From NCBI GenBank assembly GCA_026003395.1, contig BPHE01000006.1, positions 1 through 64,000 on the forward strand: DNA of 64,000 bases, written 5' to 3'. How positions within the stretch are numbered: position 1 is the stretch's first letter; each line of letters starts with the position of its first letter. The notes below the pieces were generated by a model, which saw nothing but the letters and a program-made list of their open reading frames with translations, searched no databases and had not been told where the DNA came from. Positions 4,749 to 27,666 of this stretch are shown here, piece after piece. The stretch is from Vicingaceae bacterium. Its GTDB lineage: Bacteria > Bacteroidota > Bacteroidia > Flavobacteriales_E > Vicingaceae. Position numbers and translations under genes: made by a program.

Positions 4749-5351
4749 TTATGATTGTGCTATATAAAATAACCAATATATAAAGTTATAAATTGAAAGT
4801 ATAAAAAAAATCAAACCAATGAATGCAAATGGTAAGAAATATACAGCAAGAAATAAAAAAAAGAAAGTAAGGATAAAAAAAATCAATGCTCTTTTCAAAT
4901 GTTTTTGAATGTATATAAATGAATTTTTACTTTCTTTTTTTATAAGATTTTTAATCTCCTTTCGAAGGTCTTTGACAGTCTCTTTTTGTTGCTTTAACTC
5001 TCTTTTGGTAACCGGGTTTGACTGTCCTTCAAAAACATTAGTTATTAGTTTATCTTCCTGATTATTTTCATTGCTTGAAATAACTTTTTTCGTTTCGCCC
5101 ACCTGTGCCATTACATGATTTGTTTCCTCTCTCATGTTGAGTTCTTCAGAATTACCTTCATTAACCAAAAGTTGATCATCATTTTTTTGAATAGCTGACT
5201 TTGGGCTATAATGCTCATCAATTTTTTTTGATTTTTTGGCAATTTGCTTGTGCCATTCGACATAATATCCACTCATGTACTGCCTTTTTTGAATCGTACA
5301 TGAGCCTAAGCTAACTAAAGCAAGAAAACCTAAAAATAATTTTTTGTTCAT
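4749..5351 (-). CDS. Tandem paralogous lipoprotein, copy 1
   Basis: A 200-residue predicted lipoprotein. The N-terminus has a lipobox (LVSLGSC) with Cys at residue 18, followed by TIQKRQYMSGYYVEWHK, a motif shared by all three neighbours and resembling an N-terminal motif seen in other Bacteroidota lipoproteins. A charged, helical middle region rich in Lys, Glu and Gln (about 35-145) probably forms a coiled coil. The C-terminal 50 residues are strongly hydrophobic, with two likely membrane helices. The middle part is almost identical to copy 2 at the DNA level, whereas the C-terminal membrane part is unrelated in detail. Function unknown. Confidence 0.8.
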   Translation of the reverse strand: MNKKLFLGFLALVSLGSCTIQKRQYMSGYYVEWHKQIAKKSKKIDEHYSPKSAIQKNDDQLLVNEGNSEELNMREETNHVMAQVGETKKVISSNENNQEDKLITNVFEGQSNPVTKRELKQQKETVKDLRKEIKNLIKKESKNSFIYIQKHLKRALIFFILTFFFLFLAVYFLPFAFIGLIFFILSIYNFIYWLFYIAQS

Positions 5352-5511
5352 AGCACAACTTTTATTGAATTAATAAACAAATTAACAAACATAATTAAAC
5401 TTATTTTATCTTTAATTTATTGGGCATTTCCGGAAAATCATATCTTATAACAATATAAAATATTTATTCTACCGGTTTATTTAACTTCTGTAATCAAAAT
5501 CAATTAAGATA

Positions 5512-6117
5512 TTAACTTGTTACTTCTTTAAACCATAAATATAAAAAGAAGACAGATGCCACAAAAAATAAATAAGAAAGGACAGATATTATGAATATTG
5601 ACATCGCTATACCAATGATCATACCAGCCAAACCAAAGATGAATGATAGTATAGATAACCGCAGATATAACTTCTCCTGGTCTGCTCCCTTTTTCCTTTC
5701 GTTTTTTATCAGATTTTTAATCTCCTTTCGAAAGTCTTTAACAGTCTCTTTTTGTTGCTTTAACTCTCTTTTGGTAACCGGGTTTGACTGTTCTTCAAAA
5801 ACATTAGTTATTAGTTTATCTTTCTGATTTTTTTCATTGCTTGAAATAACTTTTTTCGTTTCGCCCACCTGTGCCATTACATGATTTGTTTCCTCTCTCA
5901 TGTTGAGTTCTTCAGAATTACCTTCATTAACCAAAAGTTGATCATCATTTTTTTGAATAGCTGACTTTGGGCTATAATGCTCATCAATTTTTTTTGATTT
6001 TTTGGCAATTTGCTTGTGCCATTCGACATGATATCCACTCATGTACTGCCTTTTTTGAATCGTACATGAGCCTAAGGCGACTACTGCAATTAAACCTAAT
6101 AATAATTTTTTGTTCAT
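5512..6117 (-). CDS. Tandem paralogous lipoprotein, copy 2 (mosaic)
   Basis: A 201-residue lipoprotein; an in-frame upstream start exists at 6180, but the ATG at 6117 places MNKKLLLG and the lipobox (VVALGSC) in the same position as in the two neighbours, so I use that. Residues after the Cys (TIQKRQYMSGYHVEWHK) and the Lys/Glu-rich middle are nearly identical to copy 1. The signal-peptide segment is instead identical at the DNA level to copy 3 (compare 6074-6117 with 6814-6857). The C-terminus has two hydrophobic helices unlike copy 1. This patchwork is best explained by gene conversion between tandem copies. Confidence 0.8.
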   Translation of the reverse strand: MNKKLLLGLIAVVALGSCTIQKRQYMSGYHVEWHKQIAKKSKKIDEHYSPKSAIQKNDDQLLVNEGNSEELNMREETNHVMAQVGETKKVISSNEKNQKDKLITNVFEEQSNPVTKRELKQQKETVKDFRKEIKNLIKNERKKGADQEKLYLRLSILSFIFGLAGMIIGIAMSIFIISVLSYLFFVASVFFLYLWFKEVTS

Positions 6118-6257
6118 AATACTTTTTTTAAACAAAGTACAAATATAAATTCTTTTTAAAAAAAGAGAAATAAAAATCATTTTTATTACAATTCGAGATA
6201 TGAATTAAATCTCGGCATTTATATTAATCTTTCCATCAATTGAACTATCATTCTGAA

Positions 6258-6857
6258 TTATCCTAACTCTTCTACCAACCACAACAAAAAGAAAATAAAT
6301 GATGCCAAAAACAATAAATATGCAAGGTAAAAGAAGGGGAACAAGAAAAATCCAAAAAACCAAACTATCAATCCAATAGCAAATAATAATATCGCCGTTT
6401 TTAAATGTCTATGCAAAGAGCCGGCGTACTTTTTCTTTTCTTTTTTTATTTGCTTTTTAATCTCCTTTCTTATTTCTTTGGCTGTTTCTTTTTGTTGTTT
6501 TATCTGTTTTTTGGTTATCTGAATGGGCTGATCTTCAACAACATTAGTTTTTAAATTTTCTTTCTGATTTTTTTCATTTCTTAAGTTGACTTTTTTCAAT
6601 TCGTCTTTCTGTGCCATTGCATGGTTTGTTTCCACCCCCACGTTGAGGTCCTCGGAATTGCCGTCATTTGTTACAAGTTGATCATTATTCTCTTGAATGG
6701 CTTGCTTTTGACTGTAACTTTCATCAACTTTTTTTGATTTTTTGGCAATTGGCTTATGCCATTCGACATGGTAACCACTCATGTATTGCCTTTTTTGAAT
6801 CGTACATGAACCTAAGGCGACTACTGCAATTAAACCTAATAATAATTTTTTGTTCAT
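6258..6857 (-). CDS. Tandem paralogous lipoprotein, copy 3
   Basis: A 199-residue lipoprotein with the same plan as the two copies downstream: signal peptide and lipobox (VVALGSC), TIQKRQYMSGYHVEWHK, a charged helical middle (here more diverged, with KKQIKQQKETAKEIRKEIKK), then a C-terminal hydrophobic region with two probable membrane helices. It is the first gene of the tandem set in transcription order and is divergent from the thioredoxin-domain gene starting at 7003; the promoter should lie in 6858-7002. No function is known to me. Confidence 0.8.
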   Translation of the reverse strand: MNKKLLLGLIAVVALGSCTIQKRQYMSGYHVEWHKPIAKKSKKVDESYSQKQAIQENNDQLVTNDGNSEDLNVGVETNHAMAQKDELKKVNLRNEKNQKENLKTNVVEDQPIQITKKQIKQQKETAKEIRKEIKKQIKKEKKKYAGSLHRHLKTAILLFAIGLIVWFFGFFLFPFFYLAYLLFLASFIFFLLWLVEELG

Positions 6858-12749: not shown

Positions 12750-14141
12750 ATGAAAACTATCCGCATACATATCCCTTTGCATACATTTTGCTTTATTTTT
12801 CTTTTCATCCTCACCACTTGCCAACCACGCAATAAACAACCATCTGGCACGACTGCCCGCGATTGGCCCCAAATCATTAAAGATGGCGAACTAAAAGTAT
12901 TGATCGACCTCAGCCCTACCGGTTATTTCATCAAACAAGGCCAACCTACCGGTTTTGAATTCGAATTAATTTCTGCTTTCTGCAAAGACCACAACCTTTT
13001 TCTCAACACCATCATTATAGAAAACTTCGACCATATTTTCCACTACCTCGACAGTGGCTTGGTCGACCTTGCCGCTGCCAATCTCACCATCACATCCCAA
13101 CGCAAAAAAAAAGCACTTTTCACCACACCGGTCACCATTACGCAAATTCTTTTGATAAAAAACAAACATACACCCGACTCATCCCTCAAAGTATATCTCC
13201 GCAAAAACTCTTCTTATTCCCGGAATATTCAATCAATAAACCATTCTTTGCCCCTCACCTTTGAATTTGTATCGGGCAATATAGATGACTACGACATTCT
13301 TGATTCTGTCAATACAGGCAATTTTCAAGCAACACTGATTGATGAAAATACATTCAATATCTTTAAACATAAATTTCCCAACATTCAAATTGTCACAAAT
13401 CTTGGCATTCCACAAAAAATTGCTTGGGCTGTTTCTATCCGTTCCAAAAAACTGCATCAAAAACTCAACCATTGGTTGAAAAAATTTAAAAAAACCCGTC
13501 AATATCAACGTTTAATCCACAAATATTTTCGCCACTCACAATCATCCTATGTCAATCAATTTATTGCTTTAAAGAAAAAAAGACGCATAAACATTACACC
13601 ATTTGATGAAACTTTTAAAGGTGCAGCCAAACGCACCGGCGTCGATTGGCTTTTGTTGGCAGCCATTGCTTATAACGAAAGCCGTTTTAACGACTCGGCT
13701 GTTTCCCATAAAAATGCCACGGGCATTATGCAACTTATGCCTCAAACAGCCGCACAATTCAATATCGATAGTAGCAGCAGTCGTTATGAACATATTTTAG
13801 CCGGTGCCAAATTGTATAAAATTTTCTATAGTCGTTGGTTGAAAATAACCTCCGATTCTTCATTTGCCGTTAAGTTGGCATTGGCTTCTTACAATGCCGG
13901 TATGGGACACATCCTTGATGCCTACCGCCTTGCTGTGCATCTCAATAACAATCGACCCGATTGGTATGACATACAGTATTATCTATTGCACAAAAACAGG
14001 CCTGAATATTACAAGTCAGAGTGGGTGAAGCACGGCAGATGTTTTTGTAAAGAACCTGTAAACTTTGTACACAACGTTCTAAATATCTATCATCTCTACA
14101 AATCCATTGATAATTATATGCAGAACAAACAAAATGTTTAG
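12750..14141 (+). CDS. MltF-like membrane-bound lytic murein transglycosylase
   Basis: A 463-residue lipoprotein (lipobox LTTC). Residues about 45-260 form a periplasmic solute-binding protein family 3 domain (ELKVLIDLSPTGYFIKQGQP, GFEFELISAF, LAAANLTITSQRKKKALFT). Residues about 280-430 form an SLT lysozyme-like domain with the catalytic Glu in AIAYNESRFND, the motif GIMQLMPQTA and the ASYNAGMGH loop. This is the two-domain plan of MltF, which cleaves peptidoglycan glycan strands at the outer membrane and may be regulated by a ligand bound to the first domain. It ends convergently with the PorE-like gene, overlapping it by 4 bases. Confidence 0.93.
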   Translation: MKTIRIHIPLHTFCFIFLFILTTCQPRNKQPSGTTARDWPQIIKDGELKVLIDLSPTGYFIKQGQPTGFEFELISAFCKDHNLFLNTIIIENFDHIFHYLDSGLVDLAAANLTITSQRKKKALFTTPVTITQILLIKNKHTPDSSLKVYLRKNSSYSRNIQSINHSLPLTFEFVSGNIDDYDILDSVNTGNFQATLIDENTFNIFKHKFPNIQIVTNLGIPQKIAWAVSIRSKKLHQKLNHWLKKFKKTRQYQRLIHKYFRHSQSSYVNQFIALKKKRRINITPFDETFKGAAKRTGVDWLLLAAIAYNESRFNDSAVSHKNATGIMQLMPQTAAQFNIDSSSSRYEHILAGAKLYKIFYSRWLKITSDSSFAVKLALASYNAGMGHILDAYRLAVHLNNNRPDWYDIQYYLLHKNRPEYYKSEWVKHGRCFCKEPVNFVHNVLNIYHLYKSIDNYMQNKQNV

Positions 14142-16669
14142 TTTACACTTCGCCCATAGAAATTCACTTTTATCAAATCTTGCATCAACATCCTTTTTCC
14201 GTTGTAAAAAGGTGTAATCCATGCATCGGTCTGTCCGGCTTTGATTATTTTCTGCCTTAACGCTTCTGCTTCTCTGAGTGTTGTAAATCTTCCTTGTGTA
14301 AACCTGGTGATTCCATCAGGATAATCTCTGATAACCGGTTGCCCGAATTGTATCAAATGGTCATATTTATAATTCTCCGGATGGCGGTATGCGGCAATTT
14401 GCACTTCAAAATGCAATCCTTCTGCACAAATATTGCCTCCTTTGCTTAGCAGCAGATTATACCATTTTGGGTCGTTCAAATCCTTATCCACCAGGTCAGA
14501 AAAATCAACCGGTGGTTGATTGGGATTACACGGATAGTCGGCATACTCTTTCAATGTTTTACGTTGACCAAAAACAAATACCGTCACAAAAGCATCCTCG
14601 CTTTTCTTCTCTTTTTCTATCAACATTTTCCTGAATTCTTCGGCTTCTCTCAAAGTGTTGAACGGCCCGAATGCACATCTAGTCAAACCATCTTCCGGAT
14701 ATTTTTTACATTCTATGGGGCCATATTTTTCCCAATATTGACGGTCAAATTGCGAAACATCCGTATAACTGCCTATCTCAACTTTAAATGTCACTCCGTC
14801 AATGGGTGTGTCGTACACATTTTTCAATTTTTCCCTTTCAATTTTATCTTTATCAAATATTTTATCCGTATTCAATTCTGTCATTTTATCATTCACATAT
14901 TTTGCGGTGTCTTGCGGATTGATGATGCTGTTGTCTGTCCCTTTCACCACATCATTCAGGTTATAGTTTGTTTGGGTCACGTTGCTTCTGTTGTCTGTTT
15001 GTGCAATGCTTTTAAACTTGGCTATTTGCTGATTGAGTTTTTCTTGCAAAGACATGGGCTTTTCCACATCCTGCACCTTTGCCGCAAAATCTTTTGATTT
15101 CAAAGCAATATCATGCTCCAATTGTACGTATGTTTCAAGGTTTTCTACATTGAGATATTCGATTTGCGGTTCATAACCATCCAATTCTATGGCTATTTTA
15201 TATTTGTTTCCGGGGGTGAGTGCAAGCATATACTTTCCCGTAGCTTCATTTGATTTATATTTTCCAACCAATTCCCCGGTGTTTTCATTGGTAACGGTAA
15301 TGTCGGCTGCTGCAGGTTCATCATTTGCCGTCACAACCCCAAGCACCAAAGCCAGAATCGGTTTTTTGCCAAAATGGCCCGGTGTTACGGTGAAAATATC
15401 GTGTCCTCCCAAACTTTGCATTCTTGCCGATGAATAATATCCCGTATTTCCATCTGCCGAAAGCACATAAAACCTGTCATCATCAATCGTATTGACCGGA
15501 GCACCCACATTCACCGGCTTGGTCCATTGATTATTCTCCAAATTGCTGTAAAAAATATCATACCCACCCATGGAGTTATGACCTTCGGAACTAAAATACA
15601 AGGTCACGCCATCAGGGTGCCAATACGGCGAATCTTCGTTATACTTCGTATTGATTGTAGGACCCAGATTTTTCACGTTCCCATAGGTGCCATCCGGCAA
15701 TCTCTCTGCTATGTATAGGTCTCTACCTCCAAAACCTCCCGGCCGGTCCGATGCAAATATCATAAAACGCTCATCCGACGATAATGTAGCGCTGCCTTCC
15801 CAATAATTTGTGTTGATTTCTCCTTGCACTTTTACAGGCCTTGACCATTCTGTTCCCTGCAGGTAACTAATGTAAATGTCTCCGTTATCTTTTTTTGTAC
15901 TCTTAAAAATCAACAATTTTTGCCCATCTACGCTCAATGCAATACTCGCGTCATGTTTGGTGGTGTTGATATTGTTTCCAATACTGACCGGCTCACTCCA
16001 TTGACCATCTTTTTTGTAGCTGATCATGATATCCTCGAAATAATCTCCGTCGGGGTCCGGCTTTCCGTATTTGTTCTGCAGTCCACCCAAACTTTTTGGC
16101 CCTCTGTAGGTAAATATCAACACCGATTCATCCGGTGTAATCAATGGCACATACTCATGGTAGCGTGTATTGATTGGCGGCCCGACAGGATCAATGGATA
16201 TCTTTTCATTTACATCCGACGCAAGTTTTTTTGCATTTTCGCATTGCGATAAATATCTCTGTGCCGTCTCTTTATCTTCTTGCGCAATGTCCATTCGCAT
16301 GTATTTTTTGAAAGTTTTTATGGCCTCATCGAAATTTTTATTCAATTGATATGCCCGGGCCAAATAAAAAACCACATCCGGATTTTCTTTATTTTTTGCA
16401 TAAACATCTTCGATGAGTTTCAATGATTCGGAACGGTCGCCTTCTCCATACATTGAAGAAACGGCATACATCAATTGGTAGTAAACATTTTCCGGAAATG
16501 CTTTGTATAGTTTCTCATAATACTGCGCCGAACGTGTGAAATTCCCTTCTGAAAAATAATAATCTGCTTTCTCTTCGTTAATTTTAATTTCTTTTTTCGA
16601 CATTTGTTGGGCAAATGTGATGTTAAAACACATGATCAACAAAATGAAAATGGATTTCTTTTTAAACAT
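14138..16669 (-). CDS. PorE-like exported protein: TPR, PD40 propeller, carboxypeptidase-regulatory domain, two SPOR domains
   Basis: An 843-residue protein with signal peptide (cleavage near residue 21, ...FNITFAQ). Domains in order: TPR-like helices (about 25-130), PD40/WD40-like beta-propeller (about 165-430; repeated SADGQKLLIF, SSDERFMIFASDRPGG, HPDGVTLYFSSEGH), a carboxypeptidase-regulatory-like beta-sandwich (about 440-520), a Gln/Asn-rich linker, then two SPOR-type domains (about 640-735 and 750-840), each with FKVEIGSY or FEVQIAAY, a TRCAFGPF or TRFTQGRF turn, NTLREAE helix and a C-terminal AFVTVFVFGQRK or AWITPFYNGKR strand. The first three domains match the T9SS protein PorE and related proteins, which end in an OmpA-like peptidoglycan-binding domain; here SPOR domains, which bind denuded glycan, take that place. 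A role as periplasmic anchor is an inference. Confidence 0.85.
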   Translation of the reverse strand: MFKKKSIFILLIMCFNITFAQQMSKKEIKINEEKADYYFSEGNFTRSAQYYEKLYKAFPENVYYQLMYAVSSMYGEGDRSESLKLIEDVYAKNKENPDVVFYLARAYQLNKNFDEAIKTFKKYMRMDIAQEDKETAQRYLSQCENAKKLASDVNEKISIDPVGPPINTRYHEYVPLITPDESVLIFTYRGPKSLGGLQNKYGKPDPDGDYFEDIMISYKKDGQWSEPVSIGNNINTTKHDASIALSVDGQKLLIFKSTKKDNGDIYISYLQGTEWSRPVKVQGEINTNYWEGSATLSSDERFMIFASDRPGGFGGRDLYIAERLPDGTYGNVKNLGPTINTKYNEDSPYWHPDGVTLYFSSEGHNSMGGYDIFYSNLENNQWTKPVNVGAPVNTIDDDRFYVLSADGNTGYYSSARMQSLGGHDIFTVTPGHFGKKPILALVLGVVTANDEPAAADITVTNENTGELVGKYKSNEATGKYMLALTPGNKYKIAIELDGYEPQIEYLNVENLETYVQLEHDIALKSKDFAAKVQDVEKPMSLQEKLNQQIAKFKSIAQTDNRSNVTQTNYNLNDVVKGTDNSIINPQDTAKYVNDKMTELNTDKIFDKDKIEREKLKNVYDTPIDGVTFKVEIGSYTDVSQFDRQYWEKYGPIECKKYPEDGLTRCAFGPFNTLREAEEFRKMLIEKEKKSEDAFVTVFVFGQRKTLKEYADYPCNPNQPPVDFSDLVDKDLNDPKWYNLLLSKGGNICAEGLHFEVQIAAYRHPENYKYDHLIQFGQPVIRDYPDGITRFTQGRFTTLREAEALRQKIIKAGQTDAWITPFYNGKRMLMQDLIKVNFYGRSVN

Positions 16670-16764: not shown

Positions 16765-17403
16765 ATGGAGTTTGTCAATGAATTAATAAGACAATTTACA
16801 GAGTTGTATACTTCTGATTCTCCGGCTGTTTTAAAAGAAATTGAAAACGAAACATGGAAAAAACAATTGATGCCCCGTATGATCTCCGGAGAATATCAGG
16901 GTAGAATTTTAAGTTTAATTAGTCGTATTAAGCAACCCGGCAAAATATTGGAAATTGGCACTTTCACCGGTTATTCTGCCATTTGCTTGGCCGAAGGTCT
17001 TAAAGAAGATGGTTGTTTAATTTCTATAGAAATCAATGACGAGTTGAAAAAAATCATCCTGGATAATTGGAAAAAAGCAGGTGTGGCAAATCGTTGCAAG
17101 TTATTTATCGGAAATGCTTTAGAAATTCTGCAAGACATTGACGATATTTTTGATTTGGTTTTTATCGATGCCGATAAAGAAAATTATCCGGATTATTTTA
17201 AAGCACTGCAAAAAAATTTGAAACCGGGTTCGATAATCATTGCCGACAATGTTTTATGGAACGGAAAAGTGCTAAAACCCTCATCCGCTGATGATGACAC
17301 GGCAGGTATAATCAAATATCTTAATTTACTAAAATCGAATGAGCAATTTTTTAACGTCCTTCTTCCTGTTAGAGATGGTTTAATGATTTCCCTCAAACTT
17401 TAA
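16765..17403 (+). CDS. Class I SAM-dependent O-methyltransferase (caffeoyl-CoA OMT-like)
   Basis: A 212-residue enzyme of the cation-dependent O-methyltransferase family. Seen: AdoMet-binding glycine motif ILEIGTFTGYSAICLAEGL (about 69-87), acidic residue at the end of strand 2 (LISIEINDEL), the metal-binding Asp in DLVFIDADKENY, and IIIADNVLWNGKV near residue 157. The natural substrate cannot be told from sequence; family members methylate catechols and related phenols. It lies 25 bases upstream of the HYC_CC_PP protein and metal-efflux genes on the same strand, but a separate TAATTTTG element at 17414-17421 suggests that they may have their own promoter. Confidence 0.93.
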   Translation: MEFVNELIRQFTELYTSDSPAVLKEIENETWKKQLMPRMISGEYQGRILSLISRIKQPGKILEIGTFTGYSAICLAEGLKEDGCLISIEINDELKKIILDNWKKAGVANRCKLFIGNALEILQDIDDIFDLVFIDADKENYPDYFKALQKNLKPGSIIIADNVLWNGKVLKPSSADDDTAGIIKYLNLLKSNEQFFNVLLPVRDGLMISLKL

Positions 17404-17845: not shown

Positions 17846-17939
17846 TGATTCTTTCTTTGGAGAACAAATTCTTTTCTTTTTGAGTTCTCCTGCACCATTT
17901 TCTTTTATCTGTCATTGGTTCATCAAAACTAATGATATT

Positions 17940-20900
17940 ATGAACAGAATCATAAAATATTTTTTAGAAAACCGTGTAATTACCTTTATATTGTTGCTTG
18001 CCATTATTTTTGGCGGGATTGCCACTGCCCCTTTTCCATGGGATATAGATTTTTTACCACGAAATCCCGTACCGGTTGACGCCATTCCTGATCTTGGCGA
18101 GAATCAACAAATTGTTTACACCGAATGGCCCGGACGTTCGCCTCAAGATGTCGAAGATCAAATAACTTATCCCCTCTCCACAGCATTGATGGGAGTGCCT
18201 GGCGTAAAAACCATTAGAAGCACCTCCATGTTTGGCGCTTCAGTGATATATGTTATCTTCAAAGAAAATGTTGAATTTTACTGGAGTAGAAGCCGGATAC
18301 TCGAAAAGTTAAATTCTTTGCCTGAAGGATTGCTTCCTCCTGATGCCACCCCAACATTAGGGCCTGATGCAACAGCACTTGGTCAAATCTTTTGGTATAC
18401 CCTCGAAGGCCTCGATCCAAAAACAGGGAAAAACGTGGGCGGCTGGGACCTACACGAACTTCGAACATTGCAGGATTTTTACATTAAATATCTTCTGACT
18501 GCCGTGGATGGCGTAGCAGAAGTTGCAGGTATCGGCGGTTATGTCAAAGAATATCAGATTGACCTCGACCCCGAAGCCATGAAAGCTTTTAATGTTACGG
18601 TTGAAGATGTTTACAAAGCCATTGTTCAAAGCAATCTGGATGTAGGAGCAAGAACTTTGGAATTCAACAAAGTGGAATATCTCATTCGCGGAATCGGCTA
18701 TATCCGGTCGCTTAATGATCTGGAACAAAGTGTGGTAAAAGAATATAACCACACGCCTGTGAGAATCAAGGATATTGCATACGTTTCTACCGGTCCGGCT
18801 CCACGCAGGGGGGGACTCGATAAAGACGGAATGGAAGCTGTTGGCGGGGTAGTAGTGGCGCGTTTTGGATCAAATCCAATGAAAACTATCGAAAATGTTA
18901 AAAATGCCATTAAAAAAATTCAACAAAGCTTGCCCAAAAAGCAACTAAGCGATGGTACCATCTCCCAATTAACCATTGTACCTTTTTACGATCGATCGGT
19001 TTTGATTAGAGAAACATTAGGCACTCTTGAATCGGCACTCAACCATGAAATCTTGATTACAATTCTGGTTGTTGTGGTTTTAATTTTTAATCTCAAGGCC
19101 TCTTTTATTATTTCAGGTCTTTTGCCGGTAGGAGTCCTCCTTAGCTTTATCTTTATGCGTTGGACAGGTGTTGAAGCCAACATCGTTGCTCTTTCCGGAA
19201 TTGCCATTGCGATAGGTGTGATGGTGGATATTGGCATTGTATTCACAGAAAATATAATTCGTCATATTGAATTGCTTCCGGAAGAAAATCCCTCAGGTAG
19301 AACCTTGTTGAATACTATTTTTCAAGCAACTTCAGAAGTTTCCGGCGCAATCCTGACAGCACTATCTACCACCTTAATCAGTTTTCTGCCTGTTTTTGCT
19401 CTTGAAGGCCCGGAAGGAAAACTTTTCCACCCTTTGGCAACAACCAAAACATTGGCACTTGCAGGTTCGTTTATTTTGGGTGTTTTCATTCTGCCTACTT
19501 TGGCTTATTGGTTCTTTTCCATCAGAATCACACGCCAAAAGTGGAAAAAAATCTCTTATTTGATTCTATGCTTGGCAGGTATTTACTTATTGATCTTTTT
19601 TAAAAACTTCCTTGGTCTAACAGCTCTTTTATATGGCTCTATTGCTTTGTTGGAAGATTATTGGCCTCAAAAAATTTGGTTCACTTCCACAAAAGCTCAA
19701 TTAATCGTGATTATTCTCACGGTGATCTATTATCTTACACACGAATGGTTGCCTCTAGGTCCACAACAATTGTTCATAGTTAATTTTCTGTTTGTCGGAT
19801 TTATTACAACTCTTGTATTGGGCGTGTTATATTTGATGGTATTTTTCTATGTGCCGGTGTTAAGGTGGGCGCTCGAAAACAAAGTCAAGTTTTTAATCAT
19901 TCCGGCTTTTACCATCTTTTTTGGATGCTTATCCTATTGGGGAGCAGACAAAATTTTCGGGTTTCTGCCCGAATCCATGAAAAAAACATCTTTGTTTCAT
20001 TATTTTAGTCAAACTTTCCCCGGACTTGGCAAAGAATTTATGCCCGATCTCGACGAAGGTTCATTCTTATTGATGCCGAGCACCATGCCTCACAGTGGAG
20101 TAGAAGAAAACACCGAAGTGATCGCTCAATTGGACCGTTCTGTTTCGTCAATTCCGGAAGTAGAACTAACGGTGGGCAAATGGGGGCGTGTCAATTCTGC
20201 TCTCGATCCTGCACCTATTTCAATGTTTGAAAATATCATCAATTATCTCCCGGAATACAAAACAGATCAAAACGGTCGGAGATTGCGCTTTAAAGTGGAT
20301 GAGCAAGGGCGATTTATTTTAAAAAACGGTCATAGATATGCTTATGGGAAAGCCCCATTTCGTAAGATTCCTACCGACAGTTTAATAATAGATCCTGATG
20401 GTGAATATTTCCGCCAATGGCGCCCACACATTCACTCCCCGGATGATATTTGGCAAGAGATTGTAGAAAAAACCGACTTTCCGGGTCTTACTTCGGCTCC
20501 AAAATTACAACCCATTCAAACCCGGCTGGTAATGTTGCAAACCGGTATGCGGGCTCCCATGGGAATCAAAATTTATGGACCTGATTTGAAAACATTGGAA
20601 CAAGCCGGACTCATGCTTGAAAAAGCACTCAAAGAAGTGCCCGGCATTGAACCTAATTCTGTATTTGCCGACAGGGTTGTGGGCAAGCCTTATTTGGAAA
20701 TCATTCCAAAACGCGAATGGTTGAGCCGTTATGGTTTAACCGTCAAACAATTTCAGGAACAATTGGAATTATTGGTTGGGGGCAAAACCATCACTACCAC
20801 CGTAGAAGGACGGGAACGCTATCCTGTGAGATTGCGTTATCCCCGCGAATGGTTGGATCAACCTGAACAGTTGAAAAAAATCTTGTTTTCTACTCCCTCG

Positions 20901-21743
20901 GGCTCTTTTGTCCCTTTGGAATTGATTGCAGACATAAAATTTGAACGCGGACCTCAAATGATCAAAAGTGAAAATACTTTCCTTACTTCTTATGTGATTT
21001 TTGACAAAAAAGAAAATTGGGCCGAAGTAAATGTTGTGGAACAAGCCAATAATTATTTGCAGAAAAAAATAAATTCCGGTCAATTAAAACTTCCGCAAGG
21101 TGTAACCTTTGAATTTACAGGTAACTATGAAAATCAAATTCGCGCCACCAAACGGTTGATGATAATTATTCCGGTCAGCTTGATTTTGATTTTTCTGCTT
21201 CTTTATATGCAATTTAAAAGCATCACGGCATCAACCATTCATTTTTCAGGAGTGTTTGTTGCCCTTGCCGGTGGGTTTATTATGCTATGGTTATATAGTC
21301 AACCATGGTTCCTCAATTTTGAAATTGCCGGTGTGCCAATGCGTGATTTGTTTCAAGTTCACACAATCAACATGAGTGTGGCCGTATGGGTGGGTTTTAT
21401 TTCATTGTTTGGTATTGCCACCGATGATGGCGTTATTATGGGTACTTATATTCACGAAACCTTTCTTAAAAACAATCCTCAAACTATTGAAGAAGTTAGA
21501 TTGTCGGTGATCGAAGCAGGTAAAAAACGCGTAAGACCGGCTATGATGACTGCTGCAACCACCATTATCTCCCTCATTCCGGTTATTACATCAACAGGCA
21601 AAGGTTCGGATATATTGGTGCCTATGGCTATTCCAACATTTGGCGGAATGCTCATCCAGCTGATGACTATGTTTATGGTGCCTGTCTTTCAATGCATTTG
21701 GAGAGAAAATGCCATTAAAAAACAAAAAACTTTAAACACATGA
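17940..21743 (+). CDS. cusA: CusA/CzcA-family heavy-metal efflux RND transporter
   Basis: The inner-membrane pump of a tripartite system exporting heavy-metal cations, 1267 residues. The ATG at 17940 is chosen over the in-frame 17880 because MNRIIKYFLENRVITFILLL begins the first transmembrane helix as in homologues. Landmarks: VDAIPDLGENQQIVYTEWPG near the start, TM4 with VMVDIGIVFTEN, MPDLDEGSFLLMPSTMP in the porter domain, DPAPISMFENII and RLVMLQTGMRAPMGIKI. Met residues sit at places corresponding to copper-binding Mets of CusA, in favour of monovalent copper or silver. It is about 220 residues longer than E. coli CusA, largely through extra hydrophobic segments (about residues 527-640). 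The stop overlaps the TolC-like gene (ATGA). Confidence 0.95.
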   Translation: MNRIIKYFLENRVITFILLLAIIFGGIATAPFPWDIDFLPRNPVPVDAIPDLGENQQIVYTEWPGRSPQDVEDQITYPLSTALMGVPGVKTIRSTSMFGASVIYVIFKENVEFYWSRSRILEKLNSLPEGLLPPDATPTLGPDATALGQIFWYTLEGLDPKTGKNVGGWDLHELRTLQDFYIKYLLTAVDGVAEVAGIGGYVKEYQIDLDPEAMKAFNVTVEDVYKAIVQSNLDVGARTLEFNKVEYLIRGIGYIRSLNDLEQSVVKEYNHTPVRIKDIAYVSTGPAPRRGGLDKDGMEAVGGVVVARFGSNPMKTIENVKNAIKKIQQSLPKKQLSDGTISQLTIVPFYDRSVLIRETLGTLESALNHEILITILVVVVLIFNLKASFIISGLLPVGVLLSFIFMRWTGVEANIVALSGIAIAIGVMVDIGIVFTENIIRHIELLPEENPSGRTLLNTIFQATSEVSGAILTALSTTLISFLPVFALEGPEGKLFHPLATTKTLALAGSFILGVFILPTLAYWFFSIRITRQKWKKISYLILCLAGIYLLIFFKNFLGLTALLYGSIALLEDYWPQKIWFTSTKAQLIVIILTVIYYLTHEWLPLGPQQLFIVNFLFVGFITTLVLGVLYLMVFFYVPVLRWALENKVKFLIIPAFTIFFGCLSYWGADKIFGFLPESMKKTSLFHYFSQTFPGLGKEFMPDLDEGSFLLMPSTMPHSGVEENTEVIAQLDRSVSSIPEVELTVGKWGRVNSALDPAPISMFENIINYLPEYKTDQNGRRLRFKVDEQGRFILKNGHRYAYGKAPFRKIPTDSLIIDPDGEYFRQWRPHIHSPDDIWQEIVEKTDFPGLTSAPKLQPIQTRLVMLQTGMRAPMGIKIYGPDLKTLEQAGLMLEKALKEVPGIEPNSVFADRVVGKPYLEIIPKREWLSRYGLTVKQFQEQLELLVGGKTITTTVEGRERYPVRLRYPREWLDQPEQLKKILFSTPSGSFVPLELIADIKFERGPQMIKSENTFLTSYVIFDKKENWAEVNVVEQANNYLQKKINSGQLKLPQGVTFEFTGNYENQIRATKRLMIIIPVSLILIFLLLYMQFKSITASTIHFSGVFVALAGGFIMLWLYSQPWFLNFEIAGVPMRDLFQVHTINMSVAVWVGFISLFGIATDDGVIMGTYIHETFLKNNPQTIEEVRLSVIEAGKKRVRPAMMTAATTIISLIPVITSTGKGSDILVPMAIPTFGGMLIQLMTMFMVPVFQCIWRENAIKKQKTLNT

Positions 21744-22990
21744 AAACCATCTGTTTACTGAAAAAGATTTATCTATTTGCATTTGTCATATTGGCTTGCC
21801 ATCAACTAATGTCTCAAAAGAGCATGAATGATTATTTAATTGCCGCAGCCAATAACAATCCGGGGTTGAAAGCAAAATTTTCTGAATACATGGCTGCCTT
21901 GAAACTTTTGCCCCAAGCCGGGCAACTCCCCGACCCACAAATAGCTTTCAATTATTTTATTCAAAGTCCGGACATGGGAATGGGACAACAACGTTGGTCC
22001 ATCACATTGATGCAACATTTTCCTTGGTTCGGATTGCTCAAAACACAACAAGATATTGCAACTATGGTTGCCCGCACACGTTATGAAGAATTTTTGACAG
22101 AAAAATCAAAATTGTTTTATGAAGTAAAAGAAACTTGCTATCAAATTTACTTTTTACAACAATCTATCGATATTGCCAAAGAAAACATACGGATTCTGGA
22201 AACCATTCGCAGTTACACCCTTATTAAGATTGAAGCCGGACAAACGACACTTGCCGACGAACTCCGAATTGAGATTGAAATCAACGATCTTAATTATCAA
22301 ATTCTATTGCTTCAAGATAAATTGCAAGATTTGATGGTTAAATTGAAAAATCTTACAGGTGTCGAAAATCCAATTTTACCCGGCATTCAAGACACCATCA
22401 CAATAGCTGAACTGCCCCGCAGTTTTTTGGATAGCATTTTAACCAACAGCCCCATGGTTAAATTGATCGAAAGAAAAATAGAAACTTATTTATTAGAGAC
22501 AAAAGCAGCATATCAAAGCAGCTTGCCATCTTTTTCTGCCGGAGCAGGATATACCTACATCAAGCCCTCGTCAAATCCCATGGCCGATGCATCCAACAAT
22601 GGCAAAGACATGATCATGTTTCCGATGATTACGGTTACGATACCTCTTTACCGTCAAAAATACAAAGCAATGATCGAAGAAGCACAAATAAAATATGATG
22701 GAAGCAAAAACCAACTGCAACAAACCGGTTATGATCTCGAAAACCTTTTTGAAAAAACCGAGACCGAATTTAAAGATGCTCAAAGAAGAAAATTACTATA
22801 TACAACTCAGGGTGCCCTGGCTGAAAAAACCATCAATATTTTGATGGAATCATACGCCAATGACAACAACAATTTTGACGAAATACTACGGATGGAGAAA
22901 CTACTCCTTCAATACCGGCTCGAAAAAGAAAAAGCCATTGTTGACAAACTGAGAGCGATGGCATTTTTGCAATATTTATTAGGGAATTAA
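21740..22990 (+). CDS. TolC-family outer-membrane efflux protein (CusC-like)
   Basis: The 416-residue outer-membrane channel partner of the RND pump. It has an N-terminal signal peptide (hydrophobic to about residue 24, ...LMSQK), then the duplicated long helical hairpins of the TolC/OEP fold (NNPGLKAKFSEYMAALKLLP; heptad-rich stretch around IAKENIRILETI). PDPQIAFNYFIQSPDMGMGQ is typical of the metal-efflux branch in Bacteroidota. Coupled to cusA by a 4-base overlap and followed 6 bases later by the adaptor gene. Confidence 0.92.
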   Translation: MKTICLLKKIYLFAFVILACHQLMSQKSMNDYLIAAANNNPGLKAKFSEYMAALKLLPQAGQLPDPQIAFNYFIQSPDMGMGQQRWSITLMQHFPWFGLLKTQQDIATMVARTRYEEFLTEKSKLFYEVKETCYQIYFLQQSIDIAKENIRILETIRSYTLIKIEAGQTTLADELRIEIEINDLNYQILLLQDKLQDLMVKLKNLTGVENPILPGIQDTITIAELPRSFLDSILTNSPMVKLIERKIETYLLETKAAYQSSLPSFSAGAGYTYIKPSSNPMADASNNGKDMIMFPMITVTIPLYRQKYKAMIEEAQIKYDGSKNQLQQTGYDLENLFEKTETEFKDAQRRKLLYTTQGALAEKTINILMESYANDNNNFDEILRMEKLLLQYRLEKEKAIVDKLRAMAFLQYLLGN

Positions 22991-22996
22991 AATTTT

Positions 22997-24307
22997 ATGA
23001 CCATGAAAAATATTTTAAAAAACCGTTTTATCCAACTATTTCTTGTATTTATTTTAGGTATCATCGTTGGATTATTTATTATATCGGGCTCATCTAAAAA
23101 AACCCGACAGAAAAAAACAAACATTGTGCAAAACGAAGAAGTTGTTTGGACTTGCTCTATGCATCCACAGATTAGAATGGATAAACCCGGTAAATGTCCG
23201 ATATGCGGCATGGATTTGATACCTGCCAATACACAAAAGAAAAAAAACAAACACCATCACGATCCAAATGAAATCAGTATAAGCCCGGAAGCTGCCCGTT
23301 TGGCAGGAATAGAAACAGATGTGGTAAGAAAATCTACGGCTCAGAAAGAAATTCGTTTATTGGGACGCATCAAACCCGATGAAAGATATCTCTATACACA
23401 ATCGGCACATATCCCCGGCCGAATCGAAAGATTGTATGTGAATTTCACAGGGGAACGTATCTTTAAAGGACAAAAATTGGCAAAAATTTATTCTCCCGAG
23501 TTGTTGACGGCACAAAAAGAATTATTTGAAGCCATGAAAATTAAATCAATCAACCCTCAATTGTATCAATCGGTGAGAAATAAATTGAAACTATGGAAAT
23601 TGACGGATGAACAAATTCAAATGATTGAACAAAAAGGTGAAATTGTAGAGTATATCGATATTCTTTCGGATTATGACGGAATTGTGATGAAACGAATGGT
23701 TGAAAATGGCGATCATGTAAAAGAAGGGCAAGGACTTTTTGAAATTGCCGATCTTTCTCATTTGTGGATATTACTTGAAGCATACGAATCTGACCTGCCC
23801 TGGATTAAATTAGGCAATAGCGTTGAATTTATGGTGCAAGGCAAAGGTAACCAATTGTATCGGGGCAAAGTAGATTACATCATGCCATTTATCGACCCTC
23901 AACGCAGAGTTGCTTTCATCAGGGTTGATTTTTATAATCCAAAACTCGATTTACTGCCGGAAATGTATGTTGATGGCCTGATCCGTTCAAAATTAAATAA
24001 TGACGTTGAACAATTGATCATTCCCAAATCAGCCGTTCTATGGACCGGCAAGCGTTCTATTGTTTATGTGGCTGTACCGGGGCGGTCCACTCCGACATTT
24101 TTAATGCGGGAAATAGAACTTGGAGCAGACATGGGTGATTTTTATATTGTCAAATCCGGCTTGAAAGAAGGAGAAGAAATTGCCGTAAACGGCACCTTCA
24201 GAATTGATGCGGCAGCCCAACTTTCCGGCAAAAAAAGCATGATGCAACCGGAAGAGTCCAAGCAGACAAATGCACAGAAAACCCGGTCACACCAACACAT
24301 ACATTAG
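22997..24307 (+). CDS. cusB: RND periplasmic adaptor (CusB-like) with heavy-metal-binding domain
   Basis: The 436-residue membrane-fusion protein linking CusA and the TolC-like channel. An N-terminal membrane segment (about 10-30) is followed by a heavy-metal-binding domain, WTCSMHPQI...GKCPICGMDLIP (about 52-76), then a His-rich linker (KKKNKHHHDPNE), and the lipoyl/barrel-sandwich, alpha-hairpin and beta-barrel parts (ERLYVNFTGERIFKGQKL; DGIVMKRMVENGDHVKEGQG). Cys, Met and His residues in the first domain would bind copper or silver. The C-terminus is again His-rich (HQHIH). Either Met1 or Met3 could be the start. Confidence 0.93.
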   Translation: MTMKNILKNRFIQLFLVFILGIIVGLFIISGSSKKTRQKKTNIVQNEEVVWTCSMHPQIRMDKPGKCPICGMDLIPANTQKKKNKHHHDPNEISISPEAARLAGIETDVVRKSTAQKEIRLLGRIKPDERYLYTQSAHIPGRIERLYVNFTGERIFKGQKLAKIYSPELLTAQKELFEAMKIKSINPQLYQSVRNKLKLWKLTDEQIQMIEQKGEIVEYIDILSDYDGIVMKRMVENGDHVKEGQGLFEIADLSHLWILLEAYESDLPWIKLGNSVEFMVQGKGNQLYRGKVDYIMPFIDPQRRVAFIRVDFYNPKLDLLPEMYVDGLIRSKLNNDVEQLIIPKSAVLWTGKRSIVYVAVPGRSTPTFLMREIELGADMGDFYIVKSGLKEGEEIAVNGTFRIDAAAQLSGKKSMMQPEESKQTNAQKTRSHQHIH

Positions 24308-24393
24308 TTCACTTCTAAATGACTTTTGAATTTTATGTTAAAAATATTTTTTAATTAGGATTTTTTACTAATTACGGACAAAAATTTACAAAT

Positions 24394-25683
24394 ATGGACC
24401 ATCAAATCCATGATGTTTTTATTCCGGAATCAAAACTTCCTAGAATTGTTGTCGTAGGATGTGGTTTTGCCGGTTTTTCATTTATCAAGGCCATGAAAGG
24501 TAAACCTTTTCAGATCGTTTTACTGGATCAAAACAATTTTCACCAATTCCAACCCTTGCTTTACCAAGTGGCCACCAGTGGCATAGAACCCGACAGTATT
24601 GTTTTTCCTGCAAGAAAAATGTTTGAAAATTATCCTAATTTTCATTTTCGAATGACTAAAGTTTTTTCGGTAAACTTTTCGGAAAAAACGCTCGATACCG
24701 AGATTGGACAAATACACTATGATTATTTGATTTTGGCGTCCGGAAGTTGTACAAATTTTTTTGGGTTAAATGATATTGAAAAAAATGCTGTCGGAATGAA
24801 AACCATTCAGGAAGCATTGGATATCAGATCCCTTATTCTACAAAATTTAGAAATGGCTGTTGCCATAGGCAATCCGGAAAAACGCAAATCGCTTTTAACT
24901 TTCGTAGTTGTAGGGGGTGGGCCTGCCGGAGTGGAAACTGCCGGCGCTCTGGCCGAGTTCAAAAAATATGTTGTCCCAAATGACTATCCCGATTTGGATT
25001 CAAATGAAATAAAGATTTTTTTGATTGAAGCCGGTGATCGTTTATTAAGAAATATGCACGAAAAACTTTCAAAAAAATCATTTAAATACCTTCAAGAAAT
25101 GGGGATTGAAATCATGTTGAATACCGTGGTAAAAAACTACGATGGCAATATCCTTACTACTGATAAACAGCAAACTATCAACGCCGGTGCCGTAATTTGG
25201 ACCGCAGGAGTAAAAGGCAATGCCCTGGCAGGTATTGAAAAAACATTACTCAGCAAGGATCATCGTATCATAGTAGACAAATATTTCAGAATACCTAATC
25301 TTGATAATGTATTTGCTATTGGCGATTTGGCTTTACAAACATCCGAGAACTTTCCACATGGTCATCCGATGGTTGCACCTGCCGCAATTCAACAAGGCAG
25401 ATATCTCGGCAAAAATTTTCAAGACATTATTCAAAATAAAAACGTTCCTGTCTTTGAGTATATTGACAAAGGAAGCATGTCGGCCATTGGCCGTAAAAAA
25501 GCCGTGGCGCAAATTAAAAACATGCTTTTCTCCGGTTATTTTGCCTGGTTGCTTTGGTCTGTTATTCACCTTATTTCTATCAGTGGTTTTAAAAACAAAC
25601 TTATTGTTGGAATTGATTGGATTGTGAGCTATTTCTCATATGAAAAAAGCAACCGCTTTATCATTCGTAAATTTAAAAAATAA
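24394..25683 (+). CDS. ndh: NAD(P)/FAD-dependent oxidoreductase, type II NADH:quinone dehydrogenase-like
   Basis: A 429-residue flavoprotein with an N-terminal FAD-binding Rossmann motif (IVVVGCGFAGFSFIKAM), a second dinucleotide motif for NADH (TFVVVGGGPAGVETAGALAE, about 170-189), FHQFQPLLYQVAT near the start and the FAIGDLAL segment near residue 309 that closes the FAD site; these are family marks of NDH-2. A hydrophobic C-terminal stretch (ILPGYFAWLLWSVIHLISI-like, about 375-400) would attach it to the membrane. NDH-2 passes electrons from NADH to quinone without proton pumping. It sits between the metal efflux operon and a copper ATPase, after an 86-base gap. Confidence 0.92.
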   Translation: MDHQIHDVFIPESKLPRIVVVGCGFAGFSFIKAMKGKPFQIVLLDQNNFHQFQPLLYQVATSGIEPDSIVFPARKMFENYPNFHFRMTKVFSVNFSEKTLDTEIGQIHYDYLILASGSCTNFFGLNDIEKNAVGMKTIQEALDIRSLILQNLEMAVAIGNPEKRKSLLTFVVVGGGPAGVETAGALAEFKKYVVPNDYPDLDSNEIKIFLIEAGDRLLRNMHEKLSKKSFKYLQEMGIEIMLNTVVKNYDGNILTTDKQQTINAGAVIWTAGVKGNALAGIEKTLLSKDHRIIVDKYFRIPNLDNVFAIGDLALQTSENFPHGHPMVAPAAIQQGRYLGKNFQDIIQNKNVPVFEYIDKGSMSAIGRKKAVAQIKNMLFSGYFAWLLWSVIHLISISGFKNKLIVGIDWIVSYFSYEKSNRFIIRKFKK

Positions 25684-25695
25684 AAATATATTGCC

Positions 25696-27666
25696 ATGAA
25701 TCATCAACAACATCATTCGAATCATCACAAACAAATGGTTGAAGATTTTAGAAAACGCTTCTATGTTTCTTTAATTTTATCATTACCGGTTTTGGTATTT
25801 TCTCCCATGATTCAAAATTTTTTGGGCTATTCCCTTGAATTCTTTTTTCAAGATTATTTGTTGTTTGCTCTCTCATCCATCATCTTTATTTATGGTGGTC
25901 AACCATTTCTGAAAGGTTTTTATTCGGAAATAAAAAAAAGAGAGCCCGGCATGATGACACTAATAGCCATAGCTATTTCTGTTGCTTATATTTATAGTGG
26001 AGCAGTTGTGTTTGGATTAAAAGGTAAAATGTTTTTTTGGGAGTTGGTTACACTTATCGACATCATGTTGGCAGGCCATTGGATTGAGATGAAATCTGTC
26101 ATGGGTGCTTCAGGTTCTTTAGAATTACTCGTCAGTCTTATTCCGGACACAGCACACAAAATAACCGGAGATGAAATTATTGACATTTCGTTGGATCAAA
26201 TTAAAAAAGATGATATATTGCTTGTCAAACCCGGAGAAAAAATTCCGGCTGACGGCATTGTTATCGAAGGCGAGAGCGCCATCAATCAATCCATGTTGAC
26301 AGGCGAATCTATACCGGTAACCAAAATGAAAGGTGATGAAGTCATTGGCGGATCAATCAATGGAAATGGATCTTTAAAAATTAAAGTGGTAAATGCCGGG
26401 GATGACAGTTATTTGAAAAAAGTAATCCACCTGGTTGAAGAAGCACAAAAAACAAAATCAAAAACCCAACATTTGGCGAACAAAGCAGCCAAATGGTTGA
26501 CATTGGTTGCCATCGGAACGGGTATAATCACCTTTATTTCATGGATTATAGCGGGATATGACATTTCCTTTGCGATTGAGCGAATGGTCTCGGTCATGGT
26601 GATTTCATGTCCTCATGCCCTCGGATTGGCTATCCCTTTGGTAGTAGCAATTTCCACATCGGTTTCTGCACAACACGGTTTATTGATTCGCAATAGAACA
26701 GCTTTCGAAAATGCCCGTAAAATATCGGCTATTGTTTTTGATAAAACCGGCACCCTCACAAAAGGTGAATTTGAAGTTTCCCGCTATCATTCATTTTTGT
26801 CTGAATATTCTGATAAAGATATTTTAAAAATAGCGGCTTCATTAGAAGCAAATTCTGAACACCCTATCGCTCAAGGCATCATTCAAAAAGCCAAAGAACT
26901 GTCTATTGCCACATTTGACATTTCACAATTTGAATCAATGACAGGAAAAGGGATTAAAGCCGTCTGGAATGACCATGAAATCATGATTGTCAGTCCGGGT
27001 TATTTGAAAGAAAAAAATATAACTATACCCGCAACCGACAAGGAAAGCTCAATGGAAACAATCGTTTATCTGTTGATTGATGAAAAATTGGCTGGGTTGA
27101 TTGCTTTATCCGACAGCCTACGTTCTGAATCTAAAAGTGCAATTGAACAATTTAAAAAAGATGGCATTAAAGTATATATGGCAACGGGCGACAATAAAAA
27201 AGTGGCAATGGCCGTAGCCGATATTTTAAAATTAGATGGATTTTATGCCGAAGTTTTACCACACGAAAAAGTTGAAATTATCAAGAATTTACAATCACGT
27301 GGAGAATTTGTTGCCATGACCGGAGATGGTGTGAATGATGCGCCAGCGTTGGCTCAGGCCGATATAGGCATCGCTGTTGGTTCAGGCACCGATATCGCTG
27401 CCGAAACTGCTGATATTATCCTGGTCAAAAGCAATCCCATGGATATACTTCATTTAATACGATTTGGAAAAGCTACATATAAAAAAATGATACAAAACCT
27501 TGTTTGGGCAACAGGATATAATGCTCTTACCATCCCCCTGGCAGCCGGCATACTTTTTCCTTTTGGTATTTTAATGAGTCCCGCAGCCGGCGCCATATTG
27601 ATGAGTTTAAGCACCGTCATTGTGGCTATCAACGCACGCCTATTAAAGTATAGCATAAAAAATTAA
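25696..27666 (+). CDS. copB: CopB-type copper-translocating P1B ATPase (CPH motif)
   Basis: A 656-residue inner-membrane pump. It begins with a His-rich stretch (MNHQQHHSNHHKQ) rather than a Cys-type metal-binding domain. Catalytic parts seen: actuator TGES, the transmembrane metal motif CPH in MVISCPHALGLAIP, phosphorylation motif DKTGTLTKG, the HP dipeptide of the nucleotide domain (SEHPIAQG) and hinge GDGVNDAPALAQAD. CPH rather than CPC places it in the CopB/P1B-3-like group, which exports copper or silver to the periplasm. It follows the NDH-2 gene by 12 bases and so probably belongs to the same transcript. Confidence 0.95.
   Translation: MNHQQHHSNHHKQMVEDFRKRFYVSLILSLPVLVFSPMIQNFLGYSLEFFFQDYLLFALSSIIFIYGGQPFLKGFYSEIKKREPGMMTLIAIAISVAYIYSGAVVFGLKGKMFFWELVTLIDIMLAGHWIEMKSVMGASGSLELLVSLIPDTAHKITGDEIIDISLDQIKKDDILLVKPGEKIPADGIVIEGESAINQSMLTGESIPVTKMKGDEVIGGSINGNGSLKIKVVNAGDDSYLKKVIHLVEEAQKTKSKTQHLANKAAKWLTLVAIGTGIITFISWIIAGYDISFAIERMVSVMVISCPHALGLAIPLVVAISTSVSAQHGLLIRNRTAFENARKISAIVFDKTGTLTKGEFEVSRYHSFLSEYSDKDILKIAASLEANSEHPIAQGIIQKAKELSIATFDISQFESMTGKGIKAVWNDHEIMIVSPGYLKEKNITIPATDKESSMETIVYLLIDEKLAGLIALSDSLRSESKSAIEQFKKDGIKVYMATGDNKKVAMAVADILKLDGFYAEVLPHEKVEIIKNLQSRGEFVAMTGDGVNDAPALAQADIGIAVGSGTDIAAETADIILVKSNPMDILHLIRFGKATYKKMIQNLVWATGYNALTIPLAAGILFPFGILMSPAAGAILMSLSTVIVAINARLLKYSIKN

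Follow-up and report, generated by a model that had tools for sequence, protein, structure and literature searches.

A predicted PorE-related envelope scaffold of a Vicingaceae bacterium, ending in two SPOR domains that differ at the glycan site

The 64,000-nucleotide stretch of DNA analysed here (the window; contig BPHE01000006.1 of assembly GCA_026003395.1, from a Vicingaceae bacterium) carries on its minus strand, at 14138..16669, a gene that starts with ATG and encodes a protein of 843 amino acids. The protein is a predicted cell-envelope scaffold that is related to a known secretion-system anchor, PorE, and apparently attaches to the cell wall via SPOR domains. What is new here is a scaffold of the PorE superfamily with a SPOR tail, the two domains of which have diverged from each other at the glycan site. 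Judging from sequence and structure prediction, we lean, by a little over even, toward a periplasmic scaffold that would dock on denuded glycan through the second SPOR domain (SPOR2), the first (SPOR1) serving another contact.

The coordinates of the gene given in the original prediction, made from the letters alone, are right, and the order of TPR, PD40 and carboxypeptidase-regulatory-like domain (CRD) put forward there was borne out by Pfam and AlphaFold2. The N-terminus looks by eye like a Sec signal peptide and is followed, with all coordinates on the minus strand, by a TPR domain (residues 26-150, 16220..16594), matched by Pfam TPR_19/TPR_16 in stretches confined to residues 34-124 and modelled as helices at 25-151, by a PD40 beta-propeller (residues 156-432, 15374..16204; Pfam 67.5 bits), and by a CRD (residues 438-528, 15086..15358) that is sub-threshold in Pfam (PF13620, 21.4 bits, cut-off 32.3) but all-beta in the model. 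A variable linker (residues 530-622, 14804..15082), with 34% mean identity among 20 members of the family described below, then leads to SPOR1 (residues 626-705, 14555..14794), a helical spacer (residues 713-750, 14420..14533) and SPOR2 (residues 752-834, 14168..14416). The full-length AlphaFold2 model (34-sequence alignment, mean predicted local distance difference test (pLDDT) 82.7) is helical as far as residue 151 and all-beta in its middle part, up to about 523; the linker is of low confidence at 559-616 (pLDDT below 50), and two separate b-a-b-b-a-b domains lie at about 626-704 and 752-834; the same two domains were seen in a second model of residues 616-843 (30 sequences, pLDDT 86.5). 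TolB was the top Foldseek match of the full model (E 1.7e-7), and many other propellers match too. An OmpA domain, also held to be absent in the original prediction, gave no Pfam match at E<=1 in the protein.

That both C-terminal repeats have SPOR folds, as had been proposed, is confirmed at the level of profile and predicted structure. The Pfam SPOR model (PF05036) scores the whole protein at 23.9 bits against a cut-off of 21, with its best stretch at residues 655-689, inside SPOR1, and reports no stretch of its own for SPOR2; among 34 family or paralogue proteins, 23 have a Pfam SPOR match at E<=0.01. When the SPOR2 columns of 30 family members, which do not contain SPOR1, were turned into a profile, SPOR1 scored 51.3 bits against it (E 2e-16). 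The SPOR1 stretch was also shuffled 2000 times; 1940 of the shuffled sequences received a score, the highest being 9.2 bits. Seven own-genome paralogues without SPOR were in the searched set, and none of them gave a domain match to the profile at E<0.1. The expectation that profiles would score the repeats as SPOR therefore held for the repeat profile and the fold, and for Pfam by half. In VIA-align, solved SPOR domains were among the top matches of the C-terminal model, namely CwlC (1x60, on SPOR2, model range 94-207, Z 8.7), RlpA (two entries, Z 8.0 for 6i09, on SPOR1, and 7.8), DamX (6.5) and DedD (6.1), although by the program's own note a Z under 8 can reflect mere common arrangement, so that fold and repeat profile must be weighed together. 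The top row was 6ozd (Z 9.5), an exported protein without an assigned function; the next unrelated row stood at Z 4.8, and the FtsN SPOR, at 3.9, is within the background. Plain Foldseek placed CwlC at rank 9 (E 5e-3, prob 1.00), with unrelated folds above it. Searched against PDB sequences, the C-terminal module gave three weak matches that were taken as chance (KillerRed, turret protein), and SPOR homology thus rests on fold and repeat profile.

The family was defined by a 131-residue C-terminal module made of the two-Cys helical spacer and SPOR2. Forty-four of the 45 known members were taken (SPOR2 above 100 bits), G035, known by a short locus only, being left out; 35 of them hold both SPOR1 and SPOR2, and nine are without SPOR1 by a profile test, two of these (L034 and L115) being cut by a contig end. 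L036 and L088 are apparently one gene (both contigs have a length of 375830, and the protein is identical), and L088 alone stands within the 44.

Equivalence of the two domains, implied in the original prediction, does not hold at the residues of the glycan site. Among SPOR domains of known structure, Gln270 of RlpA alone is reported as highly conserved, contacting the lactyl group and an N-acetyl group of the glycan, and roles are given for Phe274 and a basic patch too (PMC6895207, in extract). In SPOR2, the corresponding Gln757 (codon 14399..14401), expected from that role to contact glycan, is kept in 44/44 members together with Ala760, Tyr761 (at the Phe274 position) and Arg789. In contrast, the position at which ordinary SPOR domains have Gln is Glu in every SPOR1 of the 35 tandem members, as Glu631 in the window (codon 14777..14779). 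VIA-align pairs SPOR1 model residues 12-88 with RlpA 266-342, which places Glu631 on Gln270 provided that the start of the alignment is ungapped. The Phe274 position of SPOR1 holds Val in 28, Phe in four, and Tyr (the window copy, Tyr635), Thr and Ser in one each; the Arg is kept in 32 of 35, with His in the remaining three, and a small residue (A/S/T) in all 35. The Glu spans five families (22 members in f1, 10 in f21, and one each in f6, f7 and f19). Over 20 members, mean identity is 70% in SPOR1, 74% in SPOR2, 69% in the propeller and 52% in the TPR domain; SPOR1 is conserved about as well as SPOR2, so that it is under constraint and looks repurposed instead of decaying, and the divergence looks, from the alignments, like a change of ligand.

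A further weak, mostly partial SPOR-like stretch lies upstream in 15/23 tandem members (E<0.1) and was not seen at that threshold in the other eight, the window copy included; among 25 such weak copies, 10 could be read at the Gln position, nine having Glu and one Asp. A tree of the domains, with many weak forks, puts 20 of 23 SPOR1 copies together and the 30 SPOR2 copies in a group of their own. The idea that single-SPOR relatives keep the ancestral state was set aside, since the trees favour loss of SPOR1, their forks being weak and their roots midpoint. At least two Cys lie within the 49 residues before SPOR2 in 44/44 members, and Cys714 and Cys748, both invariant in a 30-row family alignment, may form a local disulfide.

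These proteins make up a separate, patchily distributed Bacteroidota family. Of 296 genomes drawn from across the phylum, only the window's own gave a match to the module. In a set of 60 genomes of relatives, own included, it was matched in 32 at E<=1e-10 and in 28 at E<1e-40, the four weaker matches (G005, G007, G043, G059) being taken as other SPOR paralogues; the G056 set of 50 genomes gave 26, 13 of them at E<1e-39. A contig scan with a peptide pattern found nine loci, all titled MAG (metagenome-assembled genome); the pattern lies in SPOR2, so high SPOR2 identity in these loci is biased, and the residue counts lean on the genome search sets instead. A literature search, which covers subscription journals poorly, turned up no paper whose title or abstract deals with a TPR-PD40-CRD-SPOR protein.

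The PorE-type label of the original prediction is right as to kinship: the protein is a relative of PorE, but not PorE itself. The NCBIfam PorE model (NF052230) scores it at 181.6 bits over residues 24-529, against a cut-off of 600, and a separate PorE is present in the same genome (the L049 protein, 625 bits). A lipobox is by eye lacking both in the window protein and in the genome's PorE, so that a lipoprotein trait cannot discriminate between them. The genome holds 18 open reading frames of the TPR/PD40 superfamily, including one on C14 and one on C18 whose match scores are identical; the C14 copy of this pair was left out. Of the 17 scanned by Pfam or the family profile, seven have OmpA at their C-terminus and four have SPOR there, namely the window protein, one each on C15 and C17, and a 2239-residue giant on C14. 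The suggestion that SPOR replaces OmpA in PorE was rejected as too simple, because a relative (L114:392-3754, genome G059; a single open frame of 1120 residues, outside the 44-member group) has PD40, OmpA (78.8 bits) and then two SPOR domains, so that the two anchors can coexist in one protein. The SPOR domains of this relative, not reported by Pfam at E<=0.001, score 72 bits each with the family profile, and both have Gln.

In the mechanism that we prefer, Sec would export the scaffold, and its TPR domain and TolB-like propeller would bind partner envelope proteins, with the flexible linker leading on to the SPOR pair. SPOR2, through Gln757, the main chain near Ala760, Tyr761 and Arg789, would dock on peptidoglycan glycan stripped of stem peptides by amidases, and the one Amidase_3 protein of the genome could be a source of such denuded glycan. 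SPOR1 would keep its fold, while Glu631 for Gln should preclude binding of ordinary denuded glycan; in most relatives it also has Val for the aromatic, the window copy retaining its Tyr. It would be retained for another contact, most likely with a protein or between domains. The scaffold would place its partners where the wall is remodelled, at septa and insertion sites, in contrast to the even spread given by an OmpA-type anchor; septal anchoring is here what we infer. Counted in favour are a PorE-like gene third downstream in 12 loci and, in the window's own genome, the Amidase_3, SprA and 67 Por_Secre_tail matches, 65 of them over the cut-off. If true, a separate branch holding stripped glycan would tie an envelope scaffold to the places of wall remodelling, PorE-type scaffolds being described as OmpA-anchored. 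Moreover, the Gln/Glu pair would be a natural experiment on SPOR ligand choice, and a caution that two SPOR domains need not equal two glycan binders.

Both domains might instead bind denuded glycan, the pair acting by avidity and Glu631 being tolerated since it is mostly the main chain that contacts the glycan. The backbone does make most of the polar glycan contacts of SPOR according to the extract of PMC6895207, and the Arg, the small residue and, in the window, Tyr635 are largely retained in SPOR1, as counted above; nevertheless, Glu is as fixed in SPOR1 as Gln is in SPOR2, 30 of 35 SPOR1 domains lack the aromatic, and the carboxylate of the Glu would come to lie opposite that of the lactyl group, all of which makes this explanation rather unlikely. 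Very little credence is given to a bolder one, in which SPOR1 has a new glycan ligand, its Glu pairing with the amine left free in N-deacetylated glucosamine; the two domains would then jointly sense how stripped glycan is modified. Two polysaccharide-deacetylase matches are present in the genome, and in a simulation described in PMC6895207 an N-deacetylated glycan left the RlpA SPOR site.

It is also unlikely that the protein is a dedicated accessory of the type IX secretion system (T9SS), working with PorE to fix secretion machines to the remodelling wall while an adjoining OmpA-family gene supplies stem-peptide binding. Twelve loci, each belonging to family f1, have the SPOR gene followed by an OmpA-family gene, glutamine synthetase III and a PorE-like gene, in that order (in a thirteenth, L089, the OmpA-family gene adjoins and the contig then ends), and the PorE-like genes, at 545-587 bits, are the best in their genomes. 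SprA is found in 59/60 genomes and a PorE-model match at E<=1e-100 in 57/60, own included, seven of them above the curated cut-off; the three without such a match (G001, G037, G057) are likewise without the module. Yet, of the 32 genomes that lack the module at E<1e-40, a PorE match is present in 29 and SprA in 31, so the presence of the T9SS does not track the module; moreover, a metabolic gene intervenes before the PorE-like gene, and the gene order is lacking outside f1. A Tol-Pal-like envelope or division protein, whose TolB-like propeller and SPOR domains would help to link the outer membrane to the wall at constriction with no relation to the T9SS, is distinctly improbable: TolB is the top fold match and SPOR proteins are mostly division-associated (PMC6895207, in extract), but many other propellers match as well, and no division gene was recognised as a recurrent neighbour, most neighbours not being identified.

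Docking through SPOR2 with another role for SPOR1, the reading that we favour, has several points weighing against it. SPOR2, like most of SPOR1, is missed by Pfam, and several SPOR rows in VIA-align fall under Z 8. The sequences that hold the 35 Glu residues are related, so that these do not count as 35 separate events. The PorE of the window's genome sits on another contig; in the 12 loci, the PorE-like genes score under the cut-off of 600 bits and a glutamine synthetase stands before them. Additionally, the Trp of the FtsN SPOR (W283) is Ile in the window protein.

Around the gene, the convergent neighbour (12750..14141, plus strand, with a 4-base overlap) had rightly been called a lytic transglycosylase; Pfam finds SBP_bac_3 and SLT, and it is named MltF-like from these domains. 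Such a gene is found in only 3/35 tandem loci (the window, L094 and L096, the latter two in genomes G011 and G020; at L091 the downstream sequence is too short to judge), and as a local neighbour it was rejected as a functional partner. On the other side lies a divergent O-methyltransferase gene (16765..17403, plus strand; Methyltransf_3, 158.7 bits), which recurs, divergent and first or second upstream, in 27 of the 34 other tandem loci. Three of the seven exceptions begin at a contig end (L098, L100, L151) and four do not (L107, L109, L110, L113); it is in none of the nine single-SPOR loci, three of which have almost no upstream sequence. A PorE label at 122-140 bits in f21 loci was discarded, the gene being a different SPOR paralogue. 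Elsewhere in the window, three similar short lipoprotein-like genes with nearly identical N-termini stand in tandem at 4749-6857 (200, 222 and 199 residues), and 17880-27666 is by eye a metal-efflux cluster with genes for a resistance-nodulation-division pump and for TolC-like, CusB-like and P-type ATPase proteins.

Other SPOR fusions were seen along the way. In G059, L114:392-8533 holds three SPOR-ended paralogues side by side, the first being the one with OmpA and two SPOR domains. The 2239-residue TPR-PD40 protein of C14 (L039:5194-11913) has a long coiled-looking middle and SPOR-like repeats, two clear and one or two weak, and module-matching open frames of about 1800-2340 residues recur in about 20 relatives. 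On C2 of the own genome, a 462-residue protein at about 117 kb (L025:1486-2874), by eye a PorP/SprF-like outer-membrane barrel N-terminally, ends in SPOR (23.2 bits) and is another SPOR fused to a T9SS-type protein; at about 76 kb, a 696-residue barrel-like protein (L052:421-2511) has by eye about three C-terminal SPOR-like repeats, Pfam scoring one at 32.1 bits. Pairs of matches with identical scores lie on different contigs of the own genome (C14:59723-61282 and C18:31998-33557; C11:1766 and C26:15084; C5:670 and C28:1140), and are either recent duplications or assembly redundancy.

Among known systems, the protein shares the order of TPR, propeller and CRD with PorE (PG1058) of the Porphyromonas gingivalis T9SS (PMC5053529, PMC7192894, both in extract), but PorE ends in an OmpA-like domain where the window protein has two SPOR domains and scores far below the PorE cut-off. 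Many PorE homologues per species are not new, since 2 to 13 homologues of PG1058, some with C-terminal extensions, are reported for some species in the extract of PMC5053529. Inter-protein disulfides are described in part of PMC12635249 for the gliding and T9SS machinery of Bacteroidota, and nothing ties the window protein to them. The CHU_0125 family of OmpA-like outer-membrane integrity proteins (NF053607) matches at 194.4 bits over residues 17-501, under a cut-off of 620 and without the OmpA domain. TolB shares the beta-propeller fold, to which the window protein adds TPR, CRD and SPOR. The SPOR domains of CwlC, RlpA, DamX and DedD have the same fold, and their Gln and Arg are kept in SPOR2; unlike these and FtsN, the window protein has Glu for Gln in SPOR1, a fusion to a PorE-like scaffold and a spacer with a pair of Cys.

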